Notes under the pieces: model-generated | What the model was told of the DNA's origin: nothing | What the model saw: only the letters and a program-made list of their open reading frames with translations | The model's database searches: none | Shown: positions 9,201 through 61,898 of the stretch, in pieces | How the letters are laid out: each line of letters opens with the position of its first letter | Position numbering within the stretch: position 1 is the first letter of the stretch | Made by a program: the position numbers and the translations under genes | From: Capsaspora owczarzaki ATCC 30864 | Lineage: Eukaryota > Opisthokonta > Filasterea | Assembly (NCBI RefSeq): GCF_000151315.2 | Contig: NW_011887293.1 | Coordinates: 2,356,946 to 2,420,945 of the forward strand | Direction of reading: 5' to 3' | Length of the DNA: 64,000 bases

Positions 9201-12200
9201 CACTCCCAAACGTACTTGAGCGTGGTCAACGTGTTGTTCTGCGCGAGTGCTCCACCGATCGCTTGGAGTCCAGCAGTGCCAATCCTGCAGTCTTTGAGAC
9301 TTGACACGTGACAAGCAATACAAGCAAGGTTAATCTTTGGCCTTTGCAGACGAGAAACGGGCCAATGCGGCTGAAAAACATACTGCAGAGTGGTAAGCGT
9401 CTTGTTCTGCCGAAGAGCATCCGCAATGGCCTGCGCGCCGGCATCACCAAATCGACTGTGGTCCAGACTGTGATCAAGCAGTGAGAATTTCAAAGCACCC
9501 TGATAATCAAGAGTGATAGCGTCGAACCGGCATGACAGATTGCAAACATACTTGAGTGTGGTCAGTGTGGTGTTGCTCTTGAGTGCTGTAGCAATCGCCT
9601 GCGCTCCGGCTACTTCCATTGCGTCACGCGCAAGTCTATTCCAAACCGGTGAGTCATACCATCGGATACCACAATACAGCACAACATTCATCAACACAAA
9701 GCGAAGATCTCGTACGAGAGTTTCGTGAGAGAAGTATTTTTCGCGAGCGCTTCTGCAATTGCTTGGAATCCAACGCTGTTCAATCTATTGTCGCCCAGAC
9801 TATAATCAACGTGTGAGCATGCGGTATTAGGCAGCCGTGATTGCCTCGATTTTCGTTCTCTTCATCTTTCTGCTTTTTGTTTGGGGTGGGGGGATAAAGG
9901 TAGGAGCTGTCACGTACTCAAGCTCAGTCAGCGTCGTGTTCACTTGGAGCATCCGTGGTATCGCCGCCTGCGCACCTGAGCCGAGAGTGATATTGTTTTT
10001 CAAGCTGCGAGCATTACAGTCAGCGACAGGGCAAATGAAACAGCACTTGCAGTTACAAAGACATGGATTCAGTCAAAATGAGAAGGGAGGATCATACTTG
10101 AGGGAGGTCAACGTCGTGTTCTGCTCGAGCGCGTGGACAATCGCTTCAACTCCAGCATCTCCAATCGAACACCAATAAAGCCTGTGGCAATTGATGTCAG
10201 CGATGGCATAACAACGCAGCAGTAGAACCCAGAGTCACAACATCCATCCGGCAGAACGTACGAAAGCGTGGTCAGCGTCTTGTTGCACACCAGAGCATCA
10301 GCGATCGCAAGTCCACCAGCTTCGCCAATCTTGTTTTTATCCAAACTTTTACAATGAAGTGAGCAACACATACCACAGCAGCTCCAATCATGACCTCAAG
10401 CAATGATTCAGCACGACAGTGACACTGACACAAGCGTAGTCAATGCCGAGTTGGTCTTGAGTGCCTCTCCAATCGCTTGCGTTCCAGCGCTGCCAATGTC
10501 GTTGCCGAGCAAGCTGGTGACCATGCAATGAGAATCAATAATTCAATATGCGATTCAACTTATCAGCGAACAAGCAACTAGCAGACGAGGAAGAGAGTGG
10601 TGGAATCCTACCGGAGTGCAGTCAAAGTGGTGTTTTGTTTCAGCACTTTTCCGATCGCTTGAGCTCCAAAGTCTCCAATTCGAGGACCATACAACCTGAC
10701 CCAACATACAGACATGGTTAGATTGATGTTTGCAATTAGACGCGGTAGTGGTCAGCATGAGAGGAAAGAAGCATACTCTAGGGTGGTCAGTGACGTGTTT
10801 TGCTTCAGGATGGCGGCAATCGCGTTTGTTTCTGCCGGGCCGAATTTACCCCAGCCCACACTGTTACCACACAATGAGCGACGCCATCGAAGCAAACAGG
10901 AGCATTTGCAATGGTTCACTGGAATGCAAACAAAATGCGAAAATGGTGCGTACTAGAGCGTGGTCAACGTGGAGTTCTGCGTCAGTGCCTTTGCCATCGA
11001 TCGCGCTCCATTGGCATCGAGGTAACCTCTGTCGTTACATGGTGAGCCAATTACCTCGCACAAAGCAACACGGGCAAATGGTGCAAAAACAACTTACGAG
11101 AGTTCAGTCAGTGTGGTGTTTTGCGTCAGTGCATCGGCAATCACTGCGTCAGTGTAATTTTGAGTCCTGTTATCATAAAGTAAAGCAGTGAGCGAGTGAG
11201 CTTTGTACAGCTGCCATTACCATAGGCAATGGATCCGGCGTTGCATACCGGAGTGTCGTCAGCGTTTTGTTCTGCGCTAACGCGGCCGCAATCGGCTGCA
11301 TTCTAGCATTCTTGAAGTCAATCACCCAATCACCCAAGCTGATACCATACGGTGAGTCAAGGCATCAAACAAACATGGAGTTAGCAGAAGCCGACAAGTA
11401 CATACTCGAGTGTAGTCAGTGTGGTGTTTTGCAGGAGTGCTTCACCAATCGCTTCTTCCCTGCTGAGCTTCTTGCTGTCCTGGTTGTCGCCAGCAGTGTC
11501 GTCCTCGCAGTCCTCGTAGTCGCCGTCGTCAGCATCGTCAGCGTCCGTTTGACGAGCCTTCCTCTTGTTCTTCTTGGCTGTTGAGGTGTTCTTCCCGGCC
11601 ATTTCAGCAGCCCGACGCTTGCTGCGGATGGTCGTGGGGGCGCCATTACTGGAAGTTGAGCTCGTCTTGCCAGTACGCGCAACTGCAACCTGAATGGGTT
11701 TGCGAGCACGAAGACTGTAGCTCACAGCCTGAGATCCTTGGTTGGTTGGTGCAGTGGCCTTCTTCTGAGCGGTCTGGCGTTATGTGAAAAATCAAACAGT
11801 AACAAAATCACGAACGAAGCAAACAAGATGTCAGTGACGAGCTTGTGGACTGGCATTACGTCTCACAACTCTTGGGCACAAGCGGCACCTTGCTGAGCGG
11901 CTCTGAGATTGAAGTGGCAGGGACCGGTGCGGCTGCCTTGCTGGTCCTGCCTCGCGGAGCAGCAATAGTAGTACTAGCCACTTGCACTGCTGATGTGGCA
12001 GCAGTAGCAGCAGTGGCAGCAGCAGCAGCACGGGCAGCAGCTCGCTTGGGTTTGGGTGGATCGACCTCCATTGGCGCGACCACACGATCGTCTTCCACTG
12101 CGTCGGTGCTACTGAGGCGACTGCTGGTCTTTGGCTTGGTGGCTCTTGTAGTGCGCATGGGAGTAGGAGCAGGAGCAGCCGAGGGTACCGCCTTCTTTGC

Positions 12201-55751: not shown

Positions 55752-58700
55752 ATGGCTGCCAATCTCGTTCTCGACGAAGCTGCCCTCAAGAAGGCGCCTG
55801 AGGAAGTGTTTGACGTCCTCGAAAAGCTCGGCGAAGGGTAAGGCACGACGAGCAACGGAGGAGCAGGAGGGAGCAACAAGGCAAAACCAAAAAAAAAGAA
55901 AAAAAGAAAAAAAAAAAGAGCCAGCTTTTTTCAATCCGTTCCCATTTCACGCGTCCCGTCCTCGCCCGTTTCGCCCCCCTCCACTTCGTGTTCGTGTTCG
56001 TGTTTCTCGTCTCCAAAGCCGAGTGTGGCACGGTGCACTCGAAGGGAGGCAGCGCGCAAAACGACAAAGGTGGACGAAAACAAACAGAGGACGAAAAAAA
56101 AAACTTCAAATTATTATTTTTTATTATTATTTTTTTATTTATTATTATTCTTCGTCAGTCGATCGTTTGCTTTGCTCGGCCCACACTCTCCTTTCCGCCC
56201 GACCTCGCTGCTCGTCTATTGTCGTGTGTGACGTTACACACTCGTCCGACATCTGACGTGGCAGCCGCGAGCGGTCACTTTAGCGCAACGACCTGCGATT
56301 TTGACTGTTATTGCTTAAAACAACAACAACAAAAAAAAAAAACACCTTAAAAAAATAATAAAAAAAATCGTCAGTGTGGCAGGAACTGCAATCCCCTCAC
56401 AGCAGGCCCAGCGGGCTGCATCCATCGCTCTTCCGCCAGCGTCAGGTGCACCTGCTTCTGCTGATTGGCTTGAGCGTGTCGCGGAGAGCAGCAGAGTCAA
56501 CGTGGAGCGAACTCACACAAAAAGCGCCAAAAATCGCAACCAAACATCGACTCGCTCCAAAAAAAAAAAAAAAAAATCCACTGTTTCTTTTTTTATTTGA
56601 TTATTTTTTGTTTTTATTTTTATTTGGAAATCGCCGTTGTTGTTGAGTGGCTGGCTTTGCAGAGTGCCAACGCAGCAAGCCGCCTGTTGAGAGGTGGGGG
56701 GGGGGTCGCCGTTGCCTCCACACGTTGCACTTTCATCATGCACTGCGTCAGAGCAACAACAGAAAAAAACCAAACAAACAAAAAAAAAAAAAAAAAAAAA
56801 AAGGGATCGTTTGATTTTTTTTATTTTGTTGTATTTTTTTTTGAATCATTTTGGATGGAAACAAAAACAACAAACAAAACAACAAACAACAACCACAAAA
56901 ACAACAGCGAAAACGAAAAGGAAAGAAAAGAGAAGAAAAATCGACTTTCACTCAGAAATTTAAACTACAACTCAACAAGAAACACAACTGTGGTGGTGAA
57001 CAAAATCGCAATTCACTCACTCAATCCTTGTCTCCCCCCTTTCCCGCCTCGTCCCAACAACAGCTCGTACGGCTCGGTCTTCAAGGCTCGCCACAAGGAC
57101 ACCCAGTCCATCCTCGCCGTCAAGCAGGTGCCCCTTGAGAACGACCTCCAGGACATTATCAAGGAAATCTCAATGATCAAGGAGTGCGACTCGCCCTTCA
57201 TTGTCAAGTACTATGGCTCGTACTTTAAGGACACAGACCTCTGGATTATCATGGAGTTTTGCGGCGCTGGCTCGGTTGCCGACGTCATGCGTCTCCGCCG
57301 CAAGGTCCTCGAGGAGCCCGAGATTGCCTGCATTCTGCAGCACGCCCTCAAGGGTCTCTCGTACCTGCACAGCAAGCTCAAGATCCACCGCGACATCAAG
57401 GCTGGCAACATTCTCCTCAACCACGAAGGCGTTGCCAAGCTCGGTGAGTTTCTCGATTTTCGGTTGATTCTGTGCTAGTTTTGTGTTTTGTTTTCTGTTG
57501 TTCTCACTTTTTTTTTTTTTTTTTTTTGGTCTTTTCCCCACTTTGTCGTTCTGACTCGGCAGCTGATTTCGGCGTGGCTGGTCAATTAAGCGATGCGATG
57601 GCCAAACGCAACACGGTCATCGGCACCCCCTTCTGGATGGCACCCGAAGTCATCCAGGAGATTGGCTACGATGTCAAGGCTGACATTTGGTCGCTCGGTA
57701 TTACTGCCATCGAAATGGCCGAGGGCCGACCCCCGTATGCCGAAATCCACCCGATGCGCGCCATCTTCATGATCCCCACCAAGCCCCCGCCGACCCTGTC
57801 CGAGAAGGACAAGTTCTCCGAGTCGTTCAACGACTTCCTTGCCAAGTGCCTCAAGAAGAACCCCGCAGAGCGACCAACGGCTGCCGAGCTGCTCGAGCAC
57901 CCCTTCATCAAAAACGCCCCGCCAATTTCCGTCCTCAGCAAGGTCATGACCGAGGCGCTCGCCCTGATTGCCGAGAAGGGTCTCAACCCAGACGACGACG
58001 AAGACGCCTCTGGCGAAGCTGGCACTGTCATCCCCGGCACCACCAAGTCGTACGTCGACGCCGCTACCCTTGTTGATAGCGGAACGATGGTCACTGGCGA
58101 CTCCGGCACGATGGTCATGGGCGAGGACGGCACCATGAAGCGTTAGTCAACGAAGCAATGTTGCTTTTTTTTTTCTATCTGCACAACCGCTCACCGGGTG
58201 TTTTTGTTGCATGTTTGTCTTTTTTGCTCTTGTTTGGATTGGGGGTTTTTGGGGCTTGTCTGGCTGCCTTTTTGCCTGATCGACCGCTCGTTCACTCGGC
58301 TCCTCTGATTTCCGCGCTTAATTTCGTCGGGACGTTCCCGTTCAACTCGATCGATGGACTGTCAATCCTTTAGTTTCCTCCGATGGAACGTACAAGCCCC
58401 AGTTCCTCTCGCGCTTTGGCAAGAAAGGTCTGTCCGAAAATGTCCCCAGCTTAGAACAAGTAATGCCCATTGTGTCTATTTTTTTTTCTCTTTATTTCTT
58501 CACTTTTCTTTTATTCTCTTCCCGTTCTCTTCTCTTGCTTCGTTCAAAGACGGCGTGGGGAGGGTTTGGGAGGTCGAGGATGTGGCGGTTGAGCGCTTTT
58601 TGGGAGCTTTGCATGCTGTTTCCTTCGCTTTATCCTTTTTCAACTCTGCAGTTTCTTTTCTCGCACGGTCACTCGGAAGGCTTGGGAGGGAGGGGATGTG

Positions 58701-58947
58701 GTGGAGTGTCGAGAAACCACCAACATTGACTCATTGACTCACTCTTCTTCTTTCGGTCTGACCTTGCTCCTTCTCAACAAAACAGCTTAAGGCTCTTGAC
58801 TTGGATCAACTCAAAAAGAGCCTCGAGTCACTCGACCCTGCAATGGAACAAGAAATTAGCGAGATTAAGGATAGATACGAGGGCAAGCGACGACCCATTT
58901 TGATGGCCATCGATGCAAAAAAGGCTCGAGAGATGCAGGCCTCTTAA
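55752..58947 (+). CDS. Hippo/MST serine-threonine kinase with C-terminal SARAH domain
   Basis: The upstream kinase of the Hippo pathway (MST1/2, Drosophila Hpo). Five exons are 55752-55837, 57064-57443, 57563-58141, 58374-58459 and 58786-58947, giving 430 aa. Intron 1 (1.2 kb) splits the glycine loop ([12 protein letters not shown]). Catalytic features are all present: the lysine in [50 protein letters not shown] and [16 protein letters not shown] linker ending EDGTMK, a conserved MST motif, precedes exon 4 ([15 protein letters not shown]). The last exon is the SARAH helix, [20 protein letters not shown] then [19 protein letters not shown]. The length is slightly shorter than human MST1/2. 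Reading past the donor at 58142 gives an immediate TAG, so a kinase lacking SARAH would result from intron retention. Confidence 0.95.
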
Positions 58948-59281: not shown

Positions 59282-61898
59282 ATGCTGTCGTATCAGGATA
59301 TGACTGAAAAACAGCAACAGTTGTTTGACGAGGTCAAGCATGCGAGTCAACAGCTCGAGTAAGCAAAAGCTGAATTTATTAGAAGGTGTAAGCGTGTGTG
59401 TTGACGATTTGAAGCACAGCCTGTGCAAGCAACAGATTGGCAACGCAGAAGCGAAGGCGATTGCTGAAGCTATCAAAGTGAACACGACAATGACTGAGCT
59501 CGAGTAAGGCATCTCATGTTGACCGACACGTGTGAGTGGATGCTTCGTGCTCACTGGTGGAGGGGACGAGCAGTCTAAGTGGCAATCTGATTGCCGATGT
59601 TGGAGCGCGGGCGATTGCTGAGGCTGTCAGAGCGAACTGCACTTTAACAGTGGTCGAGTAAGGCATCTGACGTTTACCCATGCATGTAGACGGGTGATCC
59701 AGCAAAGTGTAATTGAGCGTGCTCACTGATGGAAGCGAGTGGACAGTCTGACAGAGAATCGGATTGGCGATGCTGGAGCGCGGGCGATTGCTGAGACACT
59801 CAAAGTGAACAAGACCTTGATCGATCTTGAGTACGTCATCTCTCTTTGACTGGCGCATGTGAGTGGAGGATTGAAGCAGAGGGAATTTAGAGTTTCTCAC
59901 TGAGGGATGGACAGTCTGAATGATAATCAGATTGGCGCTGCTGGAGCGCAAGCGATTGCTGATGGACTCAAAGTGAACAAGACGCTGATCGAGCTCTCGT
60001 AAGGCATCTTGCATTGGCTGTTGCGTGCCAATGGGTGATTCACTGCACAGAACAATGAGAGCACTCACTGATGGAGAGGACCGGACAGTTTGGCGAAGAA
60101 TCCGATCGGCGATGATGGAGCACAGGCGATTGCTGATGCACTCAAGGTGAACACGACGCTGACTGAGCTCTAGTAAAGTCGCTCAAACTTACTAATGGAT
60201 GCAAGTGGGTGGTTTCAGCAAAGGACATGCAGAGTGCTCACTAATGGAGGGGACGGACAGTCTGTGGGAGAATCAGATTACCTGTACTGGAGCGCAGGCA
60301 CTTGCTGAAGTACTCAAAGCGAATACGACGCTGACCGAGCTCGAGTAAGTCGCTCGTTTCGACAGAGGCATGTGAGTGGGTGACTTCCAGAGAGTAGATT
60401 CAGGGTGCTCACTGATGGATGGGACGAGCAGTATGGGTTCGAATCAGATTGGCGATGCGGGAGCGCGAGCGATCGCCGAGGCACTCAAAGTGAATGAGAC
60501 GCTGACTGAGCTGGAGTAAGTATTGGGTTGTTTCAGTATGCGCAATCGCTAGACTCATGCTACATTCTGCAATGTGACCGACAACAACAGTTTGAACGAG
60601 AACTTCCTCACAACTGACGGAATCGCTACATTCAGGCAAACAGGCAATGCAATTTGTGACGTGGAGTAAGACTTTGCATATTTCTTGGATTCTTTCGTGA
60701 AGGAAATTTCGAACTGCAAAGCCATTCACTTGCTTTGGCGCCATTGGTTTGTTTTGGTAGCCTTGACGACCAGCGTGCTCCTTCGAATGTTGAGTTGGCT
60801 CAGATTTTTGCTCGTACCAGCGCCGCGATCACTCGGGCTACCACCCTTGAGGCCGAGAACCAGAAGGTCCGCTTCGAGCTGGCTGCCAAAGACCAGGAGC
60901 TGCAACAGCTTCGCTCCGATCTCGCTGCCAAGGATCTTGAACTGAAGTCAGCACTTGATCGGATTGACGTGCTGGAGCGCAACCAACCAGGTGTTGGCTC
61001 GGCAGCGAACTTTGAAGGACCCATCCCGCGAGTTTCTCTCGCAACGCTTGTCACAGCCACAAACAATTTTGCCGCTGATGCTCTGCTCGGCGAAGGAGCG
61101 TTTGGTCGTGTGTACGGCGCCAGTTTGCCTGGCCCTCGCGTTGCCATCAAGAAGTTGTCTGCCGAATCCAAGCAAGGCTCTGCCGAATTCAAGTCGGAAC
61201 TGCACTCGTTGGCGAAATTCCGCCACCCGAATGTTGTCGCTATTCTGTCGTATGCAGAAGACGGTGACGAGCGATGCCTGGTCTACGAGTTCATGCCCAA
61301 TGGCTCTGTTCGCGATCGCTTGAATCGCAAAAACGACACCCCTGCACTGACCTGGTCCCAGCGTCATCGCATTGCGGCTGATGTTGCCCGTGGCATGCAC
61401 TACATCCAGGGAGCCTTCTCTGACAAGCCACTGTTTCACTTCGACCTGATGACCGACAACGTGCTGCTGGACGCGCATTTCAACGCGAAAGTGTCTGATT
61501 TTGGTCTCTTCCGCGCCCAACACCTCGATGAGAAGAGCTACATTTTCACCCAGCTTGTGCAAGGCGCAGTTCCCCAGTTGGTGCAAGGCGCAGCTCCTTA
61601 CATGTGTCCAGAGTTCTTAGTGGAAGGCCGCATGACCAACAAGACGGCTGTCTACGCGTTTGGCATGATTCTGCTGGAACTGCTGACTGCAGAAAAACCC
61701 AGCACCAAGCTGAAGTCAAAAGCGCGCAAAGCGGTGACAAACCAAGCCATCGCTGGCATGCTGGACTCAACACTCAGGCCAACTGAAGCTGAACGTCAGG
61801 ACATGAGTGAAATGGGCTCTCTTGCACTTGACTGTCTTGATGAGGCTGCTGATGAACGTCCGTTCTTTGGTAGCATCCTCACTTTGTTGGATTCTTGA
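59282..61898 (+). CDS. LRR - coiled-coil - protein kinase of RLK/Pelle/IRAK type
   Basis: Ten exons join in frame: 59282-59358, seven 84-bp LRR exons (59420-59503, 59574-59657, 59747-59830, 59915-59998, 60089-60172, 60261-60344, 60432-60515), 60591-60665 and 60761-61898, giving 625 aa. Each LRR exon has phase-2 borders and encodes LxxNxIGxxGAxAIAxALK-type repeats. A coiled coil (LEAENQKVRFELAAKDQELQ) then leads to a kinase domain. Its start, VSLATLVTATNNF, resembles the conserved lead-in of plant RLK and animal Pelle/IRAK kinases. Motifs are GEGAFGRVYG, VAIKK, HFDLMTDNVLL in place of HRDLKxxN, SDFGL and PYMCPE. The catalytic Asp, Asn and DFG are kept, but the HRD Arg is Phe and the following Lys is Met. 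There is no signal peptide or membrane helix, so it should be cytosolic. Ligand and substrate are unknown. Confidence 0.88.
59504..60590 (+). repeat. Tandem exon-plus-intron duplications in the LRR kinase gene
   Basis: LRR exon starts are spaced 154, 173, 168, 174, 172 and 171 bp apart. Intron 3' ends are also alike, variants of CTCACTGATGGAGGGGACGG ending in ACAG or GCAG. The duplicated unit therefore includes the intron, which indicates fairly recent amplification. Confidence 0.8.

Follow-up and report, generated by a model that had tools for sequence, protein, structure and literature searches.

The question raised by this locus is whether a gene that joins leucine-rich repeats (LRRs) to a receptor-type kinase, in a unicellular relative of animals, is a single unusual case. 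The gene lies at positions 59282 to 61898 of a 64,000-nucleotide stretch of contig NW_011887293.1 of Capsaspora owczarzaki (the window), and the protein spliced from it is 100% identical over 625 residues to CAOG_01933 (P0001 among our records), whose public record also identifies the host as such a relative. The first-pass annotation had delimited the gene exactly and had read its LRR exons and kinase as one gene, in agreement with our single splice model and with the public record. It had also presented the gene as one unusual case, and this is ruled out by the genome, in which CAOG_01933 is one of about 81 kinase-family loci. The family, rather than CAOG_01933 itself, is the finding.

The gene and its relatives in the Capsaspora genome

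CAOG_01933 consists of 10 exons separated by 9 introns of 61-95 bp, every one in phase 2 and with GT-AG borders (Table 1). As had been proposed, the repeats lie in 84-bp phase-2 exons; there are seven of these (2 to 8), each encoding one 28-residue LRR. The repeated unit, an exon together with part of the following intron, measures 133 nt and is present in 7 copies spaced by 154-174 bp, which are 60-77% identical to the reference copy. A Pfam search finds LRR_6 (E 1.1e-43) and a kinase domain (E 4.2e-41) in the protein, and these matches and the 133-nt repeats are far beyond chance. The kinase lead-in ATNNF...LGEGAFGRVYG is present in the splice model, and the long helix ahead of the kinase, a single helix in the AlphaFold2 model, is predicted from its sequence to be the coiled coil that had been suggested. 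The other array of the window to which the gene had been compared is real as well, with at least seven strict 84-bp phase-2 LRR exons on the minus strand between 6847 and 10513; on the plus strand, two matches of the same exon scan, at 9539 and 23241, are not LRRs and are due to chance.

The description of the gene as NLR-like holds for the fold of its repeats, which is that of the NLR and ribonuclease-inhibitor LRRs, and not for its domain content. Of the 50 fold matches listed, the LRR rows are all from NOD2 (5irn and 5irl) and cover residues 8-252, whereas the Pfam search of P0001 gives no match to NACHT, CARD, Death, TIR or ROC-COR; lacking a NACHT match, CAOG_01933 is not an NLR. NACHT is likewise without a match among the 25 of 27 families listed for the 57 annotated family records. 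Elsewhere in the genome there are four NACHT matches (G000:C1:1592302, C2:1760360, C13:748810 and C8:102569; best E 1.6e-8), none at a family locus; Capsaspora may therefore have NACHT proteins outside the LRR-kinase family.

The genome search returned 113 rows, of which 85 were retained and, once split frames were joined, define 81 kinase-domain loci on 18 contigs; the other 28 rows, being lower-scoring or generic kinases or small pieces, were dropped by judgement. Identity to CAOG_01933 is at least 60% in 47 loci (itself included), 43-59% in 29 and lower in 5. Five of the loci are short (<800 bp), one has five stop codons and another has one, and three domains share one frame; the short pieces and stop codons imply fewer working genes than 81. 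The 57 annotated records, which contain variants of one gene (e.g., P0010/P0011), carry the kinase domain in 56 cases, LRR_6 in 48 and a RING in 12. LRR and kinase are thus combined in single-gene models for no fewer than 47 of the 57, some being such variants. All RING-bearing records fall in the second group of the family, with the RING at the C-terminus. Single relatives carry an SH2, MSP or COR-B match where the LRR would be: P0057 is an SH2-kinase-RING protein whose kinase belongs to the RLK/Pelle clade, P0054 combines the kinase cassette with a COR-B match and two RINGs, and P0041 joins a cassette with a degenerate kinase to an MSP domain.

Two further arrangements were observed among the relatives. 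On the minus strand of G000:C2:2630238-2633438, an open frame of 1101 amino acids holds three family kinase domains in tandem, two of which are closer to clade A and the third to clade B. On contig C14, two pieces 91-92% identical to CAOG_01933 lie about 5 kb apart on opposite strands (899248-899997, plus; 905035-905481, minus), and to judge from their sequences they may be a single gene that an inversion has split.

The hydropathy profiles of 60 family records show neither a plausible membrane helix nor a strongly hydrophobic N terminus, which rules out a membrane receptor and agrees with the proposal that CAOG_01933 is probably cytosolic. The maximum for P0001 is 1.16, the 6 of 60 records that exceed 1.6 do so within kinase or LRR sequence, and no N-terminal 12-mer reaches 2.0, as compared with 2.49-2.95 in three plant controls.

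Outside Capsaspora, the best 120 of 249 and of 1160 rows of the relative searches name only plants beside Capsaspora, and the scores of rows that name no organism do not exceed those of plants. Because only the candidates with the most words in common are scored, these searches may miss distant holozoan relatives. No description of the family was found in the titles and abstract openings surveyed, a set that does not cover the genome paper (10.1038/ncomms3325).

Variation on the putative binding face of the repeats

The excess of amino-acid change at four concave positions of the repeats, together with a conserved kinase, is by our reading of the sequences the mark of a diversifying recognition receptor. 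The repeats were collected from the 1.5 kb that precede each of 57 family kinase exons, which gave 163 exons of 84 bp, or 160 after removal of overlaps, at 41 of the 57 loci and none at the other 16. These counts are confined to the kinase family, and the genome search with LRR_6 scored 150 of 562 candidates. The exon finder filtered residues ~5-16, which lowers the proportion of nonsynonymous differences (pN) there and not at positions 2, 3, 26 and 28.

Based on Nei-Gojobori counting over all 12,720 exon pairs, unbinned, pN exceeds the global synonymous value (pS, 0.442) at only three of the whole codons: 2 (0.624), 3 (0.609) and 26 (0.658). Entropy singles out the same three among the 27 whole codons, with more than 3.5 bits at each and 2.04 or less at all others. 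Position 28, whose codon is split by the intron, could be assembled in 100 exons, in which its pN is 0.522. For the class of positions 25, 26, 2 and 3, which derives from the LRR motif xxLxLxx and was named after the entropies were seen, pN lies above pS in 60 of 60 bootstraps over loci. At the exposed helix positions 12, 16, 19 and 22, pN is under pS. Ratios binned by pS are biased upward, as low-pS pairs are chosen, and the concave class lies below dS in the bin of highest pS, at a ratio of 0.34; exon pairs matched on similar introns show the same pattern of variation.

The AlphaFold2 model of CAOG_01933 has strands at positions 26-28 in exons 3 to 8 and at 24-28 in exon 2, which places positions 26, 28, 2 and 3 on or beside the strand that lines the concave face of LRR proteins. 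The kinase exons behave differently: in 422 of the 435 pairs among 30 clade-A loci, the ratio of nonsynonymous to synonymous substitution rates (dN/dS) is near 0.18. The putative binding face of the family thus seems, from these counts, to be evolving unusually fast, like that of recognition receptors.

A comparison of 56 loci for blocks shared at 93% or more over at least 150 bp gave 2 matches. One lies in the LRR exons of L022 and L027 (849 columns at 93.5%, against 85.7% in the kinase exon) and the other just upstream of the kinase of L054 and L055. As a separate observation, the introns that follow 140 of the 160 LRR exons seem more alike between genes than the exons are at synonymous sites (0.161 vs 0.352, for example), a likeness due in part to gapped alignment, which biases intron distances downward; constraint or homogenisation of the introns is possible.

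Proposed function and state of the kinase

We consider it fairly probable that the family, restricted to Capsaspora in the data searched, consists of soluble receptor kinases that would bind ligands on the concave face and signal through the kinase, CAOG_01933 being likely a pseudokinase, a decoy or a drifting copy. Inside the cell, the concave LRR face would bind ligands that vary and change fast; these would most likely be molecules of microbial or otherwise non-self origin, from bacteria that are eaten or met, and less likely labels of self and non-self. Binding would cluster the kinases through the LRR or the long helix, clustering would activate the non-RD kinase, and the kinase would phosphorylate itself and a target; in the RING-bearing relatives of the sister group, the signal might also be passed on by ubiquitination. 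CAOG_01933 itself would more likely act as a pseudokinase partner or decoy, or be a copy drifting toward loss.

An immune role for the family is plausible from its sequences. Non-RD kinases have been linked to innate immune signalling (PMC8463890), and Capsaspora possesses NF-kB and is reported to have no homologs of TLR, IL-1R or TNFR, the input of protist NF-kB being unknown (PMC8677719); a link of the family to this NF-kB is possible. Since the repeats are exon-sized and in phase, their number can change with the frame kept, and skipping an 84-bp exon would remove one repeat, again in frame. In Capsaspora, protein kinases are over-represented among the genes with regulated exon skipping (PMC3870316).

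The same receptors might instead serve self/non-self recognition, the sensing of nutrients or prey, or the control of stages such as aggregation and encystment, in which case the variation of the concave face would track partners, prey or kin labels. Capsaspora forms regulated aggregates (PMC3870316), the enrichment of exon skipping in its kinases would also fit here, and the LRR-helix-kinase anatomy suits any recognition role. However, nothing that we found ties the family to self/non-self recognition, feeding or stage control, and the terms "LRR" and "TKL" are absent from the main text of PMC3870316. We regard such non-immune roles as rather unlikely.

Several results weigh against the reading of the family as diversifying receptor kinases. 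Position 25, which also lies within xxLxLxx, is not raised (pN 0.328). Nei-Gojobori counts on paralogous repeats are no likelihood test, the pairs are not independent of one another, and recombination is likely. With one clear shared repeat block at the thresholds used, exon shuffling between genes is weakly shown. The placement of the LRR relative to the kinase is unsure in the AlphaFold2 model (predicted TM-score 0.54). Finally, in CAOG_01933 the catalytic-loop Lys is replaced by Met, and dN/dS is 0.40-0.73 in the 9 closest kinase pairs, the six listed all belonging to its subclade.

These last two points concern the state of CAOG_01933. The DNA of 56 loci shows Met in place of the catalytic-loop Lys in CAOG_01933, Asn in its near relative L012 and the Lys itself in the other 54; P0041, an annotated record beyond this set, has Thr. 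CAOG_03051 (P0002), a 90% relative of CAOG_01933, retains the Lys. The HxD motif is never HRD in the 56 loci (HLDLKTDN in 40, and HLN, without the Asp, in L064), while HRD is present in two annotated records beyond them, P0036 and P0039. The loss of the Lys suggests weak or no catalysis, and because of it CAOG_01933 may be a pseudokinase. The sensor-effector layout that had been suggested is therefore retained in so far as LRR and kinase form one chain, and the word "effector" is doubtful for this gene. The contrast in dN/dS, near 0.18 across the family and higher in the 9 closest pairs, indicates that the family kinase is constrained and that CAOG_01933 may not be; the raised values and the lost Lys fit relaxed constraint on its sequence.

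It could further be argued that CAOG_01933 is decaying or non-functional and that only its relatives are of interest. In addition to the lost Lys and the raised dN/dS, its activation segment carries a 24-bp duplication (common to L010 and L011, which both keep the Lys, in variant form in L031 and absent in L012), and a close relative has its two halves on different strands of C14. Against this, the frame is open through 10 exons with every splice signal intact, and the ATP-binding (VAIK) Lys, the alpha-C Glu, the HxD Asp and the Asp of DFG are all kept; we regard decay or loss of function as rather unlikely.

The ancestry of the kinase was determined from a tree of 58 domains: 22 of the Capsaspora family, 11 TK/TKL outgroup rows, three human IRAKs and 22 rows labelled Plant (P0133, P0145, P0147 and P0162 of these without an organism name), with no other named protists. 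The IRAKs group with the plant RLKs and the Capsaspora family in one clade, apart from the 11 TK/TKL rows (support 100/99), so the kinase of CAOG_01933 is, by its sequence, an RLK/Pelle kinase, as had been proposed, and a tyrosine kinase or a RAF/RIPK-type kinase is ruled out. The 22 family rows form a single Capsaspora-only clade (100/100) that is not nested among the plant rows, which rules out a recent plant origin. The best tree pairs Capsaspora with plants at 72/35, and, with three human IRAKs only, the approximately unbiased test gives p-values of 0.212 for Capsaspora+IRAK and 0.394 for IRAK+plant.

It has to be considered whether CAOG_01933 is the Capsaspora IRAK, an ortholog of animal IRAK/Pelle feeding NF-kB. 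TKL/IRAK is its database label, IRAK4 is among its top fold matches, and Capsaspora, which lacks those animal receptors, has an NF-kB whose upstream inputs are still to be assigned (PMC8677719). Nevertheless, Capsaspora+IRAK was not recovered, though not rejected, the family stands as a clade of its own, and Death is without a match in P0001 and among the 25 listed families (the genome-wide Death search was silent, as were its controls, and carries no information). The likeness to IRAK is thus one of clade and fold, "IRAK" being a label and not a result, and orthology is improbable. It is more improbable still that the hypervariable positions are unconstrained surface sites of a neutrally expanding and contracting repeat. 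In favour of this, the concave positions lie exposed and might accept change, short repeats undergo recombination, and pN is not elevated at position 25. Against it, relaxed constraint would not by itself yield pN above pS, and the exposed helix positions remain under pS.

Table 1. Features of CAOG_01933, in coordinates of the window.
Feature	Position	Strand	Basis
Whole gene CAOG_01933, 10 exons, 625 aa	59282..61898	+	Splice model; identity to P0001
Exon 1, N-terminal cap, 26 residues (MLSYQDMTEKQQQLFDEVKHASQQLD); many paralogs have similar caps	59282..59358	+	Splice model; N termini listed
LRR exon 2, 84 bp, phase 2	59420..59503	+	Splice model; 84-bp exon scan
LRR exon 3, 84 bp, phase 2	59574..59657	+	Splice model; 84-bp exon scan
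LRR exon 4, 84 bp, phase 2	59747..59830	+	Splice model; 84-bp exon scan
LRR exon 5, 84 bp, phase 2	59915..59998	+	Splice model; 84-bp exon scan
LRR exon 6, 84 bp, phase 2	60089..60172	+	Splice model; 84-bp exon scan
LRR exon 7, 84 bp, phase 2	60261..60344	+	Splice model; 84-bp exon scan
LRR exon 8, 84 bp, phase 2	60432..60515	+	Splice model; 84-bp exon scan
Exon 9, degenerate last repeat (LRR cap), 75 bp	60591..60665	+	Splice model; model strand 245-247
Exon 10, 1138 bp: linker, long helix, kinase, stop	60761..61898	+	Splice model
Long helix, residues 256-321 (predicted coiled coil)	60786..60983	+	One helix in AlphaFold2 model
Protein kinase domain, residues 353-621, RLK/Pelle clade	61077..61883	+	Pfam; PDB fold matches; tree
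Catalytic loop HFDLMTDN, non-RD, Lys->Met (codon 61449-61451)	61437..61460	+	Sequence; 55 other loci compared
24-bp tandem duplication in activation segment, +8 residues (QLVQGAVP-QLVQGAAP)	61549..61596	+	Repeat search; locus comparison

Directly upstream of CAOG_01933 in the window, at about 57070-58947 on the plus strand, lies another protein kinase gene; its C-terminal Mst1 SARAH domain (Pfam E 4.4e-17) leads us to read it as a STE20/MST (Hippo) kinase.

Likeness to known systems and implications

CAOG_01933 shares its predicted LRR horseshoe with NOD2 and the NLRs, and differs from them in carrying the LRR at the N terminus, fused to a kinase, with no match to NACHT, CARD or Death; NOD2 recruits the kinase RIPK2. 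With IRAK/Pelle it shares the kinase clade and fold and the absence of a membrane anchor. An N-terminal Death domain defines the IRAKs, and a receptor recruits them, while in CAOG_01933 the LRR stands in the same chain as the kinase. The plant LRR-RLKs and RLCKs (BRI1, SYMRK and Pto) also have an RLK/Pelle kinase, and the LRR-RLKs an LRR sensor; CAOG_01933 differs in having neither signal peptide nor membrane helix by hydropathy and in its separate kinase lineage in the tree. The repeats of plant LRR-RLKs are also of another LRR type.

Among unicellular relatives of animals, the Kinase TLRs and Kinase TIRs of choanoflagellates likewise join a kinase to LRR and/or TIR. They carry a TIR domain and, in the Kinase TLRs, a membrane helix, and the same study reports finding no IRAK and no NLR in choanoflagellates (PMC6040629); CAOG_01933, in contrast, has no TIR match and no membrane helix. 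The closest parallel in exon design is that of the LRR-ROCO genes of the brown algae Ectocarpus and Saccharina, which are built from 72-bp phase-2 exons with one LRR each, show diversifying selection at four concave sites (14, 16, 18 and 19) and have been proposed as immune receptors (PMC11378527). By motif reading, these sites would be the counterparts of our positions 26, 28, 2 and 3. Both families thus place one LRR of fixed length in each phase-2 exon and change at concave positions (by a counting method in our case), and they differ in exon length (72 vs 84 bp), LRR type, partner domain (a ROC-COR GTPase instead of an RLK/Pelle kinase) and lineage, the two being unrelated.

Returning to the receptor-kinase reading, we tentatively suggest that Capsaspora may possess a diversified intracellular receptor repertoire whose members couple a NOD2-like, exon-modular LRR directly to a kinase of the IRAK clade and, in the sister group, to a RING as well, so that sensor, kinase and ubiquitin steps stand in one chain. 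Animals spread these steps over NOD2/RIPK2 or TLR/IRAK/TRAF6. If the suggestion is true, duplication, unequal exchange and regulated exon skipping of in-frame repeat exons would vary specificity. Microbe recognition and NF-kB input in Capsaspora are open questions (PMC8677719, PMC9621439), for which this family of about 81 loci is a concrete candidate in an organism with published transfection and genome editing. Alongside plant receptors and the ROCO genes of brown algae, the family would add another independent case of LRR diversification, and its sensor-kinase(-RING) layout would directly fuse steps that are divided among different proteins in animals.
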